A stretch of DNA of 64,000 bases from assembly GCA_019054805.1 (NCBI GenBank), contig JAHQIY010000040.1, positions 186,001 to 250,000 on the forward strand. The letters run 5' to 3'. Within the stretch, counting starts at the first letter, position 1, and every line of letters starts with the position of its first letter. The notes under the pieces were generated by a model. The model saw only the letters and a list, made by a program, of their open reading frames with translations. It did not search any database and had not been told where the DNA came from. Of the stretch, positions 58,053-64,000 are shown in pieces. This DNA comes from Brachionus manjavacas (taxonomy: Eukaryota > Rotifera > Eurotatoria > Ploima > Brachionidae). Both the position numbers and the translations under genes were made by a program.

Positions 58053-58877
58053 ATGAAAAAAGATAACAGCGCGAACTTTAAGCAAAGTACGGTACTGCCT
58101 TGGATTGAGATGAGAATCGCAAGCCAAAGCACCGCTTGTTATGCAGCGCATTCTCATGATGAGTTTTCATTTGGGATAATTCAACAAGGCAAAGCTGACT
58201 ATCGTAATCACAGCTCTACGCATCATATTGGTCGTGGTGACATAGTGACGATTAATCCCGCCGATGTTCACTCTTGTAACCCAGAAGCGGGAACTTGGTC
58301 TTATAGCATGCTGTTTGTTGATACCAAACAGATGGGGGCGATTCAACGAGAAATTCTCGGCCAATCTCAGGCTGGGTATAGTGCAGACTACACACCATTT
58401 CGTCACGCATTTGAGCGCAGTGAGTCAATCAAAAATCATTATTTGGCTCTGTTTAACGATCTCCAGTCAGAAGCGAGCCAATTACAGGTACAAACTCGAC
58501 TGTATGACTTTATTGAAGCTGTTCACGCACAGAGTTCAATGGAGGTTAAACCATCCCCCTCTTCATCACTGAAAAGGGTGCAAGAAAAACTGCTCGATGA
58601 TGTTAGTCAAACTCATCAATTGGATCATCTAGCGCAAGAAGCCCAGATGAGCCGTTACCAGCTCCTTCGAGCGTTCAAGCATTACTATGGGCTTCCACCT
58701 CATGCCTATTTGATGGATGAGAAAATCAAACGTGCCAAGGTGATGCTTAAATCCGGTCAGGAGATCGCCAAGGTGGCTCAAGAGCTTGGTTTTTCTGACC
58801 AAGCGCATTTTCAGCGTCAGTTTAAAAAGAAAATTGCCGTTACTCCTAAGTTCTATCAATCACACTTTGTTGATTGA
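58053..58877 (+). CDS. AraC-family transcriptional regulator
   Basis: Regulator of 274 aa with an N-terminal cupin-like AraC-binding domain (AAHSHDEFSFGIIQQGKADYR, then GRGDIVTINPADVHSCNPE). Its C-terminal HTH_18 domain has LDHLAQEAQMSRYQLLRAFKHYYGLPPHAYLM and VAQELGFSDQAHFQRQFKK. AraC genes of this type are often next to LysE exporters and control them. A strong AAGGAG site precedes the ATG. Confidence 0.9.
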   Translation: MKKDNSANFKQSTVLPWIEMRIASQSTACYAAHSHDEFSFGIIQQGKADYRNHSSTHHIGRGDIVTINPADVHSCNPEAGTWSYSMLFVDTKQMGAIQREILGQSQAGYSADYTPFRHAFERSESIKNHYLALFNDLQSEASQLQVQTRLYDFIEAVHAQSSMEVKPSPSSSLKRVQEKLLDDVSQTHQLDHLAQEAQMSRYQLLRAFKHYYGLPPHAYLMDEKIKRAKVMLKSGQEIAKVAQELGFSDQAHFQRQFKKKIAVTPKFYQSHFVD

Positions 58878-59433
58878 GCCTATCATTTGATGTGATACCA
58901 TTGTGGGGTTGGTTAGTTTTTCTTGTAGCCTCCCAGACTCAATGGGTTTCTGTGTACCAACCAAATCAATATCTTGACGACGCGCAGACTCTTCGAAAGG
59001 TAAGTAAGGCGTATGTAGTTTGATAGGCGTCGATATGGTATCTTTTGGTGCATAAACGGGCACTCATGTATTTGTTTTTGCTCATTAGGGTGTGGAACCT
59101 CGTTCAAGAGTAATTTTACAATGCATTACGAAGGTAACTTCTGTGGAGCCTACCATAAACCCAAAAAAGCGAGCACTGGTTATGCTCAAGAGCTATAGCA
59201 TCTTGTAGCCGAGTGATGATGTGGTTTACGTGAAGCGATGAAAATGGGTCACTTCATAAGGGGTCTGCAGTGTTGTATCAGACAATCCCGAGCACGATTC
59301 TTTAGAGATAAACAATAAGAACGGCCGCAATTTTTAGGTTATCGACAAGGCGATAGCGACATTGTTTAAAAAGATTTTTTAAACTTCCACGAACGAGGAG
59401 TTTTGTTGTTTTGGTAAATGGAGCGGCGAACGA
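58878..59433. other. Gene-free junction left of the defence-like island
   Basis: A 556-base stretch with no ORF I can support. Short leftward frames (58860-59107) and a 25-codon rightward frame starting at the ATG of ATGCATTACGAAGG near 59118 have no recognised family. It may hold decayed gene ends. The change from ordinary core-like genes to a restriction-type cluster happens here. No tRNA, integrase or clear direct repeat was found. The perfect palindrome at 59364 is listed separately. Confidence 0.5.
59364..59384. promoter_or_regulatory. Palindrome upstream of the GIY-YIG gene
   Basis: GTTTAAAAA-GAT-TTTTTAAAC is a perfect 9-bp inverted repeat 50 bases before the GTG start. It is a candidate operator or promoter element of the island. 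Confidence 0.45.
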
Positions 59434-60009
59434 GTGAGTAATACATATTACGTGTATAGCCTTAAGGACCCACGAACCAAACCAGCGACTATATTTTACA
59501 TAGGCAAGGGGACTGGTAGCCGCGCGACTGAGCACCTTAAAAAGGTGGACGAGACAAGAAAGGGGTTGTTCATCCAAGAAATCATAGGTACCGGCCACAC
59601 TCCTATAGTCACCAAAATCGTAGATGGACTAACTGAAGAACAAGCCCTTCAGATAGAACTAGAATTGATTTCTAGCTTTGGTACCGTGGACACTGGTGGT
59701 TCATTATACAACACGGTCATACCACGCTCGATTAAGCGTAAAATTGATACTGAGATCACTGTACCTAGCGGAGCTCTAGAGAGAGCTCAGCTGGGATTAG
59801 AGCTTTTAAAAAAATCAATTATTGCGTTATCTGAAGAGAACCCAAATGGAGTTACTAACTCAGATTGTGCTCATTATCTAGGGTTACAGTCAGATAACGA
59901 AGGTAACCAGAAAGATTATCTTACTTATAGTGTTCTGGGGTTATTGTTGAAAGAAGGCGCTATTGAAAGCGTAAAAGTCGACAACCGCAGAAAATATAGA
60001 AAAACTTGA
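59434..60009 (+). CDS. GIY-YIG nuclease, LEM-3-like, probable restriction enzyme
   Basis: Protein of 191 aa. The N-terminal GIY-YIG domain (about 1-95) begins TYYVYSLKDPRTKPATIFYIGKGTGSR, giving the two Tyr strands (YVY at 6-8, YIG at 22-24), Arg R30 and a probable metal-binding Glu at E75. The YIGKGTGSR form is that of LEM-3-like members. The C-terminal part (about 120-191) looks like a winged helix for DNA binding. The GTG start at 59434 has GGAG ten bases upstream. It is followed after 7 bases by the ATPase-kinase gene. With a cytosine methyltransferase nearby, a role as the restriction nuclease is inferred. Confidence 0.78.
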   Translation: MSNTYYVYSLKDPRTKPATIFYIGKGTGSRATEHLKKVDETRKGLFIQEIIGTGHTPIVTKIVDGLTEEQALQIELELISSFGTVDTGGSLYNTVIPRSIKRKIDTEITVPSGALERAQLGLELLKKSIIALSEENPNGVTNSDCAHYLGLQSDNEGNQKDYLTYSVLGLLLKEGAIESVKVDNRRKYRKT

Positions 60010-60016
60010 GGTCAAA

Positions 60017-62401
60017 ATGGCGAAATTAAAACCAAGAGCAAGGCTTATACGCACAATTGGCGACAAGCTAATTAGCGGCCCTGAGGCTGCGATTATTGAG
60101 CTTGTTAAGAACTCGTATGATGCAGACTCTCCAGTTGTCGAAGTTAAGATCGTTCCTCCACAGCATAAAGATGGCAATGTTGAGCTCCCAGTAGAAACTC
60201 ATGGCTACATTGAGATTAACGACAAAGGTCATGGCATGACTTATGAGGAAATGATTAATGTATGGTTAGAACCAGCAACAGATATAAAGGCGAAGAAGAA
60301 AATCTCTCGCTCTGGCAAGCGTGATGTTTTGGGAGCCAAAGGCGTAGGACGATTTGCTTCAGCTAGGCTTGGTAAAAAGATTGAAATAACCTCCGTGGCA
60401 CGAGTTAAGGATGTCTTGGAAAAAAGTATCTTGAATCTTGACTGGGAAGTATTCGAGTCAGTGAAGTACCTAGAAGACATTGATATCGATATTCGAAAAG
60501 AGCCCTTATCGCCCGAAGGTGAAGTAACTGGCGTCAGCATAAAAGTTACAGAACTGAATGATGTCTGGGGTGAAACAAGGCTTGAAGAGCTCATTCATGA
60601 ACTCCGACGTTTAGCCACTCCTCAGACACATGAAGATAACTCGTTTGATATTGCTTTGGACCTTTCGGCTTACGTTCAGTCCGAAGAAAGAGCGGAGTAT
60701 CTAGAGTCATTGAAGAAAGCGAAAAAACGACAAGATGTTCCTTATCAAGCTTTTTCACCATATGACTTCGATGGTCGGGCTTTTTTCCAACAAAATAACC
60801 GAACTGTGCAATCTCTTACTAAAGAAGAGGTTCAAGAAGAAGAGACTCCAGAAGAGCTACTTTCCGAGAAGAAGAAGGAAAAAGAGGAAGAGGATAATAC
60901 AATTAGACCCTTTTCTCTTGGCGAGCATTGTGATTACCACGTAAAAGGCAAGTTTGATGAAGCTGGTGTTTTTTCTGGAACACTCAAGATTTTGCGTGGC
61001 GATAAGGTTCCAGTACCAATAGAGTTGAAATCACCTGAGCTGAATCAAAATGAGAAGTCATGTGGTCCAGTCGATATTGAATTAAAACTGTATGATTTAG
61101 AAGCAGACTCCATTAAACGTTTGTTTAAAGTAATGGGGTTAAACTACGATGCATTCAGTTTAAAGGAAGCAAGAAAATTTATTGCAGACAACACTGGTAT
61201 TGGTATCTATAGGAATTCATTCCGTGTAAGGCCATATGGTCATCATGATCATGACTGGCTTAACCTAGAAAAACGACGTGTTCAGAATCCTTCTCACCGT
61301 ATTGGTCATGCACAAATTGGTGGCTCAATCTCAATCTCTGATGAAGTAAGCTCTGGTTTAGTTGAAAGAAGTAGCCGAGAGGGTTTAGAACAAAATGGGT
61401 CATTCTCTCGTTTAAAGTCACTAGTAACTAATCTATTGCTTAACATTGAAGCTGCCCGTTTTGGTTATAGAGAAAAAGCAGAAATTAGCAGGGCCCCAAA
61501 AAAAGACTTCACAACAGCATTTGAAATTGCATCCTTAGACAACATTTCTGATGCAATTAAATCTAGTCATGCCCTAAACGCCGAAGAGAAACAAGCAATC
61601 CAAACTGTTGTTAACAAAACATCCAACAATATGGATAAGGTATTAAAAGGGATGGATAAGTACCTTAAATTGCTAGAGTCACGCGTATCGCTGGGTAACG
61701 TTGTTGCGCAAGTGCTACATGAGGGGCGAACATATATCTCTCCTGTACAGGAAGCTAACATATTCTTTGAGCGATTTGCTGATGCTCTTACTTTAGAAGA
61801 TAAATTTGGCGATCATGCACGTGAGCGATTACCTAGAACTCTTGAACGGATGAAGATAGGGGCTGACGGTATCCATAAGCTATTTGATGATATTGACCCG
61901 ATATCAGGCAGAAAGAGAGCCAAACCTCATGAATTTGTCCTTGTGGATGTTATTGAGAAAGTTGAGCGACTCACTGACACAATTCGATCTGACGCGGAAG
62001 TATTTGTTGAATATGACATACCCTCTTCGGTCAAATGCTTTGGGTTTGAAGGGGATCTTCAGGCAGCATTACTGAACTTAGTAACGAATGCTACTCATTG
62101 GCTAAATACTGAAGAGTCTGAAGAGAGAAAAATTACGATTACTATTGAAAGTGATAGTGATGTTTTAAGCATTTATGTTTCCAATAATGGCCCTCAAATT
62201 TTACCTGTTCATCATGAACGCCTATTTAATGCTGGCTTTACTTTAAAGACGGCGGGACACGGCCTAGGTTTGGTGATTGCAAGAGAAGCTATGCGAAATA
62301 GTAATGGTGATCTTGAGTTTGATTCTAGCTGTGAAGATACAACATTCATTTTAACAATTCCGACGCAGGCTGAAGGAGAGGCGAGCAGTGCAACGCATTA
62401 A
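60017..62401 (+). CDS. MORC/Hsp90-like ATPase fused to a histidine-kinase-like module
   Basis: Protein of 794 aa with two GHKL ATP-binding modules. The first (about 15-200) has EAAIIELVKNSYDADS (23-38), INDKGHGMT and RDVLGAKGVGRFASARLG, as in MutL/Hsp90/MORC ATPases. A charged Glu/Lys-rich linker (about 266-294) and a long middle region follow. The middle region includes the FRVRPYGHHDHDWLNLEKRR segment known from MORC-like proteins. Near the C-terminus an H-box-like VLHEGRTYISP (H568) precedes a kinase-type ATPase domain with N-box NLVTNATHW (687-695), G1 VSNNGP and G2 GHGLGLVIAREAM. There is no membrane segment. It is followed by an overlapping receiver gene, so H568 may pass phosphate to it. 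Confidence 0.83.
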   Translation: MAKLKPRARLIRTIGDKLISGPEAAIIELVKNSYDADSPVVEVKIVPPQHKDGNVELPVETHGYIEINDKGHGMTYEEMINVWLEPATDIKAKKKISRSGKRDVLGAKGVGRFASARLGKKIEITSVARVKDVLEKSILNLDWEVFESVKYLEDIDIDIRKEPLSPEGEVTGVSIKVTELNDVWGETRLEELIHELRRLATPQTHEDNSFDIALDLSAYVQSEERAEYLESLKKAKKRQDVPYQAFSPYDFDGRAFFQQNNRTVQSLTKEEVQEEETPEELLSEKKKEKEEEDNTIRPFSLGEHCDYHVKGKFDEAGVFSGTLKILRGDKVPVPIELKSPELNQNEKSCGPVDIELKLYDLEADSIKRLFKVMGLNYDAFSLKEARKFIADNTGIGIYRNSFRVRPYGHHDHDWLNLEKRRVQNPSHRIGHAQIGGSISISDEVSSGLVERSSREGLEQNGSFSRLKSLVTNLLLNIEAARFGYREKAEISRAPKKDFTTAFEIASLDNISDAIKSSHALNAEEKQAIQTVVNKTSNNMDKVLKGMDKYLKLLESRVSLGNVVAQVLHEGRTYISPVQEANIFFERFADALTLEDKFGDHARERLPRTLERMKIGADGIHKLFDDIDPISGRKRAKPHEFVLVDVIEKVERLTDTIRSDAEVFVEYDIPSSVKCFGFEGDLQAALLNLVTNATHWLNTEESEERKITITIESDSDVLSIYVSNNGPQILPVHHERLFNAGFTLKTAGHGLGLVIAREAMRNSNGDLEFDSSCEDTTFILTIPTQAEGEASSATH

Positions 62402-63791
62402 TCTATTAATTGTTGAAGATAAAAAGACTCAATTAGAAGAGTGGGAAGATGCTTTAGCCGGTTTCAACCTACACTCAGAAAGAGTTGGAAGAGGTTTAAG
62501 GTTTGTTTCTAAGTTCGCTAGGACTCACAAAGAAGCGAGAGAACACCTTAGTACTTTCAATTTTTCGGCTGCGATTATCGATATCGGATTAAAAGACGAT
62601 GATGGCCAAGACAATGAAGATAACACTGCAGGTAATAAAGTCTTGGAAGATATTATGGACTCTACGATGTGTCTTGCATGGGTTTATACTGCCCAGCAAA
62701 CAGATGCAGACATTCCTAAACACTTAGATGACTATATTGAGTTAATTGATCGTTCAGCGAAGCCAAAATCAGAGGTGCTTGAGGATCTAGCTTCAAAGCA
62801 AAATCTATTGAAATCAATCATCACAATAAAAAGTCAGTTTAGTAAATCTAAGGCCGAACATTTCTATTCTGCTATTGGGCCTCGTTGGAGTTTATGGGAA
62901 CAAGATGCTTCTGATCATACTGATAAAGCAATTATCCGTCATATGGCGACTCACTTACATGCATCATTCCTTAATGAAACAGAAAAAGTGCACCCTGAAG
63001 AGTACTACTTCACTGGGCCTATGATTGAGGGGGCGTTAGACACGGGTGATATAACAGTAGTTGATGGTCATCACTACATACTGGTCACGCCACGGTGTGA
63101 AATAGCTCAGAAGAAAAACAGTTACTATCAGTTTGTTGAGCTTGAAGATATGTCAGAAAACCTCCTAAGGGAGGAAGATAAACTGTCGGAGTTAAGTGAT
63201 AAGCTCAAAGAAAAGGGTCAGCTAGTAAAAGATCTCAAAAAATCCATACCACCATTGAGAAAGACTTATCAGAGCAGCATTAAAGCAAAAAATGTAGTTA
63301 AAACTCAAGTAAACCGTGGAATAGCAGAAAAAAGCAAAACTACAGACTCAGAGGTTTTGTCTAAGCTGCATTCAGAGATAGTTGAAAACGTTGAGCTGCT
63401 GCTTGGGCTAGAGAGAAATGAACGTGTCGCTGAAGAAGAACTGAAGCAAGCGGAATCAGCATTGGAAGATGCAGAAAAAGAACACCTAAAAGCTGATAAG
63501 GCGGAAAAAAGGCAGCTAGCTATTAAAAATAAATTACTTCCACCAAATGGAGGTAAAATTTCACTTCATATACTGCCTGCTGTGAAACAACCTACTTCTG
63601 GAAGCTATGGCCCTTTACATGCTCATTTTGAAAGGCTTATATATATACCGGAGTCTGACTCTGACGCCGTTGCACGATTTATAGAAGGAAAATATGCGAG
63701 GTTATCAAATGAGTTCGTTCCTTCATTCGTCGAGCGACTAGGATCACACTTTAGTCGAATCGGAACTCCTGACTATTCTCACCCAGAGTGA
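62388..63791 (+). CDS. Receiver-domain protein with novel coiled-coil output region
   Basis: Protein of 467 aa. The receiver domain (about 1-135) keeps all key residues: acidic E10-D11 in LLIVEDKK, phosphoacceptor D65 in AAIIDIGLKDDDG, T101 in WVYTAQQ, and K125 in DRSAKP. No known output domain follows. Instead there is a helical part, a segment VDGHHYILVTPRCEIAQKK (about 224-242), and a long Lys/Glu coiled coil at about 260-380. The end is conserved-looking, with LHAHFERLIYIPESD. The GTG start overlaps the kinase gene by 14 bases and has AAGGAGAG seven bases upstream, so translation is coupled. Confidence 0.8.
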   Translation: MQRINLLIVEDKKTQLEEWEDALAGFNLHSERVGRGLRFVSKFARTHKEAREHLSTFNFSAAIIDIGLKDDDGQDNEDNTAGNKVLEDIMDSTMCLAWVYTAQQTDADIPKHLDDYIELIDRSAKPKSEVLEDLASKQNLLKSIITIKSQFSKSKAEHFYSAIGPRWSLWEQDASDHTDKAIIRHMATHLHASFLNETEKVHPEEYYFTGPMIEGALDTGDITVVDGHHYILVTPRCEIAQKKNSYYQFVELEDMSENLLREEDKLSELSDKLKEKGQLVKDLKKSIPPLRKTYQSSIKAKNVVKTQVNRGIAEKSKTTDSEVLSKLHSEIVENVELLLGLERNERVAEEELKQAESALEDAEKEHLKADKAEKRQLAIKNKLLPPNGGKISLHILPAVKQPTSGSYGPLHAHFERLIYIPESDSDAVARFIEGKYARLSNEFVPSFVERLGSHFSRIGTPDYSHPE

Positions 63792-63793
63792 TG

Positions 63794-64000
63794 TCAGTTA
63801 AGTAACTCCATCACAACCTCACCAATTTGCTGTGCCAAGTATGGCGGCACAGCATTTCCTACCTGCACATACTGCTGTGTACGATTTCCTTCAAATTTGT
63901 AGTTATCAGGAAACGTTTGTAAGCGAGCGGCTTCACGAACGGTCAAACTGCGGCACTGCTTAGGGTCGTAGTGAATAAAGTAATGCCCATCCTTTGAGAT
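63794..64000 (-). CDS. Cytosine-5 DNA methyltransferase, C-terminal part (cut by window edge)
   Basis: The last 68 residues of a leftward gene that starts beyond the window. They contain the late motifs of C5 methyltransferases: [23 protein letters not shown] (motif IX) and [19 protein letters not shown] (motif X), followed by the stop. The gene ends 2 bases from the convergent receiver gene. It would protect host DNA from the GIY-YIG nuclease, making a type II restriction-modification pair. The catalytic PCQ motif and target-recognition region are outside the window. Confidence 0.88.

Follow-up and report, generated by a model that had tools for sequence, protein, structure and literature searches.

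The stretch of DNA analysed here (hereafter the window; 64,000 nucleotides, positions 186,001 to 250,000 of the forward strand of contig JAHQIY010000040.1, in the Brachionus manjavacas assembly GCA_019054805.1) ends in a compact set of four genes, coding for a GIY-YIG nuclease-like protein, a histidine kinase with two GHKL modules, a receiver protein and a C5-cytosine methyltransferase (C5-MTase). A first-pass annotation, made from the sequence alone, had described this set as a restriction-type island with a built-in two-component relay that gates the nuclease. Calls of the open reading frames (ORFs) confirmed its gene order, as well as the spacing of the three rightward genes (a 7-base gap, then a 14-base overlap) and their convergence on the C5-MTase gene, which lies tail to tail with the receiver gene and ends 2 bases past position 63791:

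59434..60009, plus strand: GIY-YIG nuclease-like protein, 191 aa, start GTG (ORF; Pfam PF22945, 7e-8)
60017..62401, plus strand: dual-GHKL sensor kinase, 794 aa (ORF; Pfam; 16-sequence alignment)
62388..63791, plus strand: response-regulator protein, 467 aa (ORF; profiles of relatives)
63794..64000, minus strand: C-terminal end of the C5-MTase (Pfam; motifs)

The C5-MTase gene runs past the end of the window; complete on the contig (L002:4795-6360; loci collected for this analysis are given as L numbers), it codes for 521 aa, matches the C5 methylase family of Pfam (8e-18) and contains all five of the C5-MTase motifs sought (I, IV, VI, VIII and X).

Two GHKL modules were found in the kinase by Pfam, HATPase_c_3 (5e-18) towards the N-terminus and HATPase_c (2e-21) towards the C-terminus. 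Its predicted features are the following:

60080..60460, plus strand: N-terminal paraMORC-type GHKL ATPase module, residues 22-148 (Pfam; alignment)
61196..61240, plus strand: GIGIYRNSFRVRPYG motif, residues 394-408, near the MORC S5 motif but distinct from it (motif search)
61718..61720, plus strand: codon of H568, phospho-acceptor histidine of the H-box HEGR (alignments)
62054..62368, plus strand: C-terminal histidine-kinase ATPase domain, residues 680-784 (Pfam; profile against solved kinases)

The residues H568-E569-G570-R571 are invariant in all 16 kinases aligned, as are those of the C-terminal N- and G-boxes. Moreover, the family profile aligns with solved histidine kinases across the DHp and catalytic domains, with HEGR placed on the HE-R of 3a0r and ZraS and on the HE-- of FixL chimeras. 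Because the alignment runs through both domains, the C-terminal half is, judged by sequence, a genuine histidine kinase. This bears out the H-box that the first-pass annotation had placed at H568, now aligned with the phospho-histidine of solved kinases, and the kinase-type character of the C-terminal module, on which it had made its proposal depend.

The N-terminal ATP motifs (E28, N32, D69, G71, G73, K108, G109, G111 and R112) are likewise invariant (16/16), and the N-terminus matches NF050001, the family of the HgiDII/BbrUII restriction ATPases, at 7e-13 (48 bits, far below the whole-protein cut-off of 550). This module had been taken as MORC-type; of that description, the presence of two GHKL modules stands and the MORC assignment does not. 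The motif GhXhhpXXRhl of the MORC S5 domain occurs in none of the 16 kinases and is present in a separate MORC protein of L006, and membership of the kinase in MORC was rejected on this ground. With the GHKL motifs and a restriction-modification (R-M) context present, and the S5-like part judged from its motif only, the N-terminal half is probably paraMORC-like. R-M loci of the MORC and paraMORC kinds are described in PMC2292703, and protection against phages by a GHKL-nuclease protein, VcSduA (Shedu paraMORC3), in PMC12137116. VcSduA and HgiDII/BbrUII resemble the window kinase in joining an N-terminal GHKL ATPase to DNA restriction; VcSduA, however, carries its nuclease on the same chain, whereas the window has a histidine kinase and a separate receiver protein.

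A Pfam scan of the receiver protein of the window returned no receiver match of its own. Response_reg was matched, at E up to 1, in 15 of 27 receiver sequences (best 1e-4) and in six of ten distant relatives (best 3e-6, every one under Pfam's cut-off). The features of the protein were placed from relatives and alignments:

62400..62762, plus strand: receiver domain, about residues 5-125 (via relatives)
62580..62582, plus strand: codon of D65, the predicted phospho-acceptor (invariant in 22 and 16 rows)
62835..63161, plus strand: C-terminal effector-like domain, first half, residues 150-258 (R184, E205, TG-D-I, TPRC-E; alignments)
63162..63554, plus strand: charged insert, residues 259-389, found in the longer, closer relatives (alignments)
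63555..63788, plus strand: C-terminal domain, second half, residues 390-467, ending in R-x-G-x-P-D (alignments)

D11 and D65 are invariant, and position 101 is Thr or Ser, in both receiver alignments; to this extent the complete receiver of the first-pass annotation holds. Its K125 does not: this position is Lys in the window and Gln, Ala, Met, Ser or another residue in relatives, and strand 5 has its basic residue at position 122 (Arg in the window; Lys or Arg in 16/16 and 27/27 sequences of two overlapping alignments). With D65 invariant in the receiver and H568 on the H-boxes of solved kinases, the two proteins are, by sequence, a two-component pair.

In the C-terminal domain of the receiver protein R184, E205, C237, R457, G459 and P461 are invariant in 22 sequences. 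Sequence searches assigned this domain to no Pfam family and gave two weak matches among PDB sequences (E 0.6), with no known fold emerging; the Pfam scans of receiver proteins showed neither a DNA-binding output domain nor a known toxin domain. Profile comparison linked the domain to that of a third receiver family, from phage contigs (3e-11), and, through a core of 31 columns, to Response_reg_2 proteins (1e-7; 2e-6 and 7e-6 with other alignments), and it appears to be common to several receiver families. In a survey for other architectures of the domain, which by its design could pick up no protein longer than about 400 aa, four of the 120 relatives listed (of 1177) were shorter than 250 aa, and two of these four carry the label partial.

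The kinase/receiver pair was mapped in 23 loci, gathered by receiver or kinase queries, and a C5-MTase, sought anywhere in the fetched stretch, was present in 21 of them; these loci are not independent, two Campylobacter plasmids (L018 and L043) being close copies and several loci representing one clade. The two loci without a C5-MTase are an Enterobacter mori plasmid (L017) and L058, whose contig breaks off some 0.5 kb upstream of the kinase. Both the restriction-type island of the first-pass annotation and a conserved association of the pair with a C5-MTase are supported. Named loci belong to Pseudomonadota, Campylobacterota (conjugative plasmids), Fusobacteriota and Bacteroidota, and 1177 proteins were retrieved when a large protein set was searched with the profile. 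In samples drawn around Shewanella basaltis, which is in each of them, matches were found in one of 146 genomes of the family (S. basaltis itself), 5/394 of the order, 11/369 of the class (six over the full profile) and 4/398 of the phylum. A DNA search for relatives of the E. mori pair in E. coli, and a protein search for the receiver in named phages, found none. On a human faecal phage contig (MT838277.1, L044), a methyltransferase-like ORF, a relative of the kinase and a 438-aa ORF lie in a row.

The linkage to the GIY-YIG gene is of a different order. The GIY-YIG protein matches the LEM-3-type family (PF22945), and the motifs YYVY, FY-GKGTGSR, IE-E and LYN are invariant in all ten aligned rows, one of which is a copy. 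PADLOC reports a match to PD-T4-3 (7e-6) that covers only the start of the nuclease, residues 4-39; PD-T4-3 is a GIY-YIG defence protein that acts alone. Of the gene co-occurrence predicted by the first-pass annotation, the part concerning this gene is not borne out: it accompanies the pair in just three of the 23 loci (the window, L006 and L009), and GIY-YIG was rejected as an obligate effector because the other 20 lack it. It tracks the methyltransferase instead, a C5-MTase being present in nine of ten full-length GIY-YIG loci, and the eight GIY-linked enzymes in our tree, from which the near-copies L068, L080 and L089 and pieces under 280 aa were left out, form one clade (support 100/98) whose nearest outside relatives occur with Vsr and without GIY-YIG. 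In L144, L146 and L147 the same GIY-YIG and methyltransferase lineages are found without the kinase pair and with MZA-type genes upstream of the GIY-YIG gene; MZA-like systems, which like the window locus combine a GHKL ATPase with a C5-MTase, are described in PMC9523054, in whose text the origin of the MZA name could not be traced; MZA-type genes are absent from the window locus. The idea of a nuclease gated by the relay is not supported by these counts, and the GIY-YIG protein would rather be a methyltransferase-linked accessory nuclease of this lineage, in place of the Vsr of its relatives.

One could go further and see in the locus a type II R-M system of the ordinary kind, with GIY-YIG as restriction enzyme, the C5-MTase as its methyltransferase and the pair merely lying between them. 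Examples are known of GIY-YIG restriction enzymes paired with C5 methyltransferases, and the nine loci of ten and the single clade are as this explanation would have them; of a sequence-specific nuclease matched to its methyltransferase, the features observed are the methyltransferase motifs and a conserved GIY-YIG core. It is nevertheless quite improbable, given 18 loci in which the pair accompanies a C5-MTase without GIY-YIG, nearest methyltransferase relatives that go with Vsr, and a GIY-YIG gene that stands alone (L145). This lone gene (L145:4452-5039) lies among housekeeping-like genes, with neither a methyltransferase nor a kinase pair in the stretch.

The pair itself is mobile. It is 99% identical to the pair of a Vibrio-type P2-like prophage (L009), the DNA identity being 93% at the start of the kinase gene (60057-60256) and 98-100% from there to the end of the receiver gene, against about 70% in the GIY-YIG gene and 46-79% in most of the methyltransferase gene. 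The converse is seen between L009 and L067, prophages of the same kind (GIY-YIG 92%, C5-MTase 83%, kinases 26%), and between L006 and L143, which have like integrases and neighbours (GIY-YIG 81%, C5-MTase 94%, kinase 27%). Because distant pairs replace each other between like GIY-YIG and methyltransferase genes, the pair evidently moves as one cartridge. The L009 prophage carries a P2-type replication nickase, CII, a repressor and an integrase (PHROGs), its P2 type being taken from the labels of sister records, and the top-ranked DNA records for it are Vibrio cyclitrophicus phages. The cassette sits between repressor and integrase, and the same slot holds other genes in all four sister phages opened (of 23 with a match): Septu with a type IV enzyme, Menshen with a type II methyltransferase, a retron-type ATPase with DUF3427, and DUF3427 with unnamed genes (names as in the records).

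A scan of IMG/VR with the kinase yielded 66 contigs, with a next gene (receiver-like by eye) in 60 and a methyltransferase in 29. Where phage receivers are of the two types that share the C-terminal domain, a methyltransferase is present in 16 of 18 loci, as against 6/38 for other types (Fisher 2e-7, in a count that ignores relatedness and uses classes drawn by hand from the locus listing; 56 of the 66 loci were counted, L056, L068, L078, L080 and L089 being dropped as copies and L057, L085, L087, L111 and L115 because they have no next gene). On these sequences, the count ties the shared domain to methylation. Many other phage-contig GHKL-kinase/receiver pairs, with another or no C-terminal domain, have no methyltransferase in the stretch (L066, L072-L074, L081, L091, L094, L098 and others). 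When nine phage-contig receivers were scanned against Pfam, one gave a match.

A hint of what the kinase may sense comes from a phage contig (L059:7100-10513), in which an extra N-terminal domain precedes the GHKL-kinase and matches EcoRII-N with 20.9 bits, below the Pfam cut-off of 25. The domain gives weak alignments to two solved EcoRII-type chains (E 0.045 and 0.16; 3hqf is the EcoRII N-terminal domain) and, over 32 residues, to the EcoRII protein of L036 (1e-4). A Thauera plasmid has a dcm-vsr-HNH locus whose HNH enzyme is, in its front part, 61% identical to residues 13-165 of the L059 kinase, so that a domain borne by a nuclease in that locus is borne by the kinase in L059. The methyltransferase and Vsr of the Thauera locus are 53% and 52% identical to their L059 counterparts, and the L059 locus has Vsr, C5-MTase, an EcoRII-C protein and a receiver beside the fused kinase; in L057 and L058 the kinase extension is shorter and lacks the NDTG motif of the L059 domain. 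The fusion of an EcoRII-N-like domain, as found in a type II enzyme, to the kinase of one relative makes the sensing of methylation or DNA state, as first proposed, a plausible role.

Taking together the domains, the invariant His and Asp, the linkage to the methyltransferase, the swapping of the pair as a unit and the phage hotspot, we favour, at a little under even chances, a reading of the cassette as a methylation-guided anti-phage restriction system in which the pair is the restriction engine and GIY-YIG an accessory. The C5-MTase would mark self DNA, and the N-terminal paraMORC-type GHKL ATPase clamp of the kinase would inspect DNA. Unmodified target DNA would let the C-terminal kinase half phosphorylate H568, from which the phosphoryl group would pass to D65 of the receiver partner; DNA sensing and phosphorelay are what is to be expected from knowledge of such domains. 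As to the last step, we infer that the C-terminal domain of the partner (TG-D-I ... P-x-C-D/E ... R-x-G-x-P) performs or triggers restriction, with GIY-YIG as an accessory nuclease tied to the methyltransferase. In its most specific form, phosphorelay restriction in which a paraMORC clamp-kinase reports unmethylated sites and phosphorylates a separate effector with an undescribed C-terminal domain, the pairs being phage-carried cartridges swapped between methyltransferase frames, the proposal is a tentative one, to which we give rather less than an even chance. Recognition and action normally reside within one restriction enzyme complex; here they are apparently joined by a His-Asp relay, so that two-component signalling in immunity could be tested with three genes. 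If the reading is correct, the C-terminal domain of the receiver would represent a new class of effector, and the exchange of pairs like cartridges would supply natural chimeras with which the determinants of specificity could be tested.

The strongest alternative makes the pair a regulator: on sensing infection or the state of DNA, it would switch the methyltransferase or a nuclease encoded nearby (GIY-YIG, EcoRII, MZA). Receivers usually regulate, and signalling that controls R-M systems was the speculation offered in PMC8011034. Furthermore, conventional nucleases are found near the pair in several loci, and the pair might therefore serve them: EcoRII with Vsr adjoins it in L036, an EcoRII-C protein lies near it in L059, MZA-type sets in L006 (MzaB and MzaE matches by PADLOC), L022 and L042, and type I genes in L038 and, with Vsr, in L039; L020, L040 and L041 have Vsr. 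These neighbours weigh against restriction by the pair itself, as do several points given above or to be added here: no nuclease or other catalytic signature and no convincing PDB relative was found by sequence in the C-terminal domain of the receiver; the C-terminal domains of the two other receiver families, compared directly, show no significant match (0.08-0.1), and the link to Response_reg_2 rests on the 31-column core; the EcoRII-N match is sub-threshold; and relatedness and hand-drawn classes enter the Fisher count. A regulatory pair is nonetheless the less likely reading. In some loci no more than the pair and a methyltransferase was seen: these are L037, between RF3 and AzlCD, L019 (Fusobacterium), and the Campylobacter plasmids, with no nuclease annotated directly adjoining. 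In addition, the pair is replaced by a very distant one while GIY-YIG and the C5-MTase stay, and the Pfam-scanned receivers lack a DNA-binding output domain.

Restriction by the pair must also be set against abortive infection, in which the phosphorylated partner would disable the cell instead of cutting phage DNA. The Detocs system joins a histidine kinase and receiver proteins in defence to a suicidal, phosphorylase-type effector. The window resembles it in its kinase and receiver but has a C5-MTase instead of such an effector, and no phosphorylase-type effector domain was among the Pfam matches of the receivers scanned. The Detocs analogy, an effector domain that matches no Pfam family and the AIPR-type and Abi_2 genes that adjoin the pair in some loci would suit a suicidal outcome; a methyltransferase that is almost always present and the EcoRII-N-like domain fused to one kinase speak instead for discrimination between self and non-self DNA, and with no known toxin domain in the receiver proteins scanned we hold abortive infection to be very improbable.

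A kinase, receiver and C5-MTase theme has already been published, for the sister family HEF_HK/Response_reg_2: Bellieny-Rabelo et al. (2021; PMC8011034) described pairs of HEF_HK (PF19191) and Response_reg_2 (PF19192), resembling two-component systems, beside a C5-MTase and often Vsr. The window shows the same architecture, a kinase with HATPase_c_3, DHp with its H-box, and HATPase_c beside a receiver and a C5-MTase; HEF_HK kinases are homologous to those of the window family (hhalign 4e-49, with the DHp stretch not aligned), and the core of the receiver C-terminal domain is shared, as noted above. The families nevertheless differ. The window pair has no match to PF19191 or PF19192 at E up to 1; PF19192 is touched by one of 27 receivers (0.044) and by none of ten distant ones, and PF19191 is not matched by the L059 kinase, the sole other kinase scanned against Pfam. 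HEGR is found in 16/16 kinases of the window family, whereas the four PF19192-linked kinases show HHEF (one), SHEL (one) or no such match (two). The four PF19192 receivers are of 542-634 aa, those of the window family mostly of 340-467 aa, and the GIY-YIG bookend also sets the window locus apart. A search with PF19192 found six of 197 genomes, four over the cut-off, and all four read C5-MTase, kinase, receiver. Near one HEF_HK-type locus, a 75-aa ORF (L054:11466-11693) is 87% identical over 62 residues to the window methyltransferase and is perhaps a remnant. Among the papers listed by our literature searches, whose coverage leaves out bioRxiv and most subscription journals, we saw no experimental test of the present kinase/receiver pair, and the passages of PMC12839542 consulted hold nothing on it.

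As to the origin of the window, its gene content is bacterial and the assembly comprises 114 Mb in 61 contigs; the contig may therefore belong to a bacterial companion or be a contaminant. The four-gene set is bordered by a direct repeat of 29 bp, of which the left copy lies in the window:

58851..58879, plus strand: left copy of the 29-bp direct repeat, at the 3′-end of an AraC-type gene (27/29 identical to the right copy)

The right copy (L002:6717-6745) is beyond the methyltransferase gene, and the repeats enclose about 6.9 kb and the whole gene set; when the right flank was shuffled 40 times, no match exceeded 22/29. Because of this near-perfect repeat the set resembles an island of that length that was inserted precisely, with the repeat as its likely insertion footprint. 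No integrase gene was seen between the two copies, and Rfam and tRNA scans of the window gave no match. The GC content of the three genes in the window is 0.40-0.42, compared with 0.448 for the window as a whole, and past the methyltransferase the contig continues with an ABC transporter and other ordinary-reading genes, named by eye.

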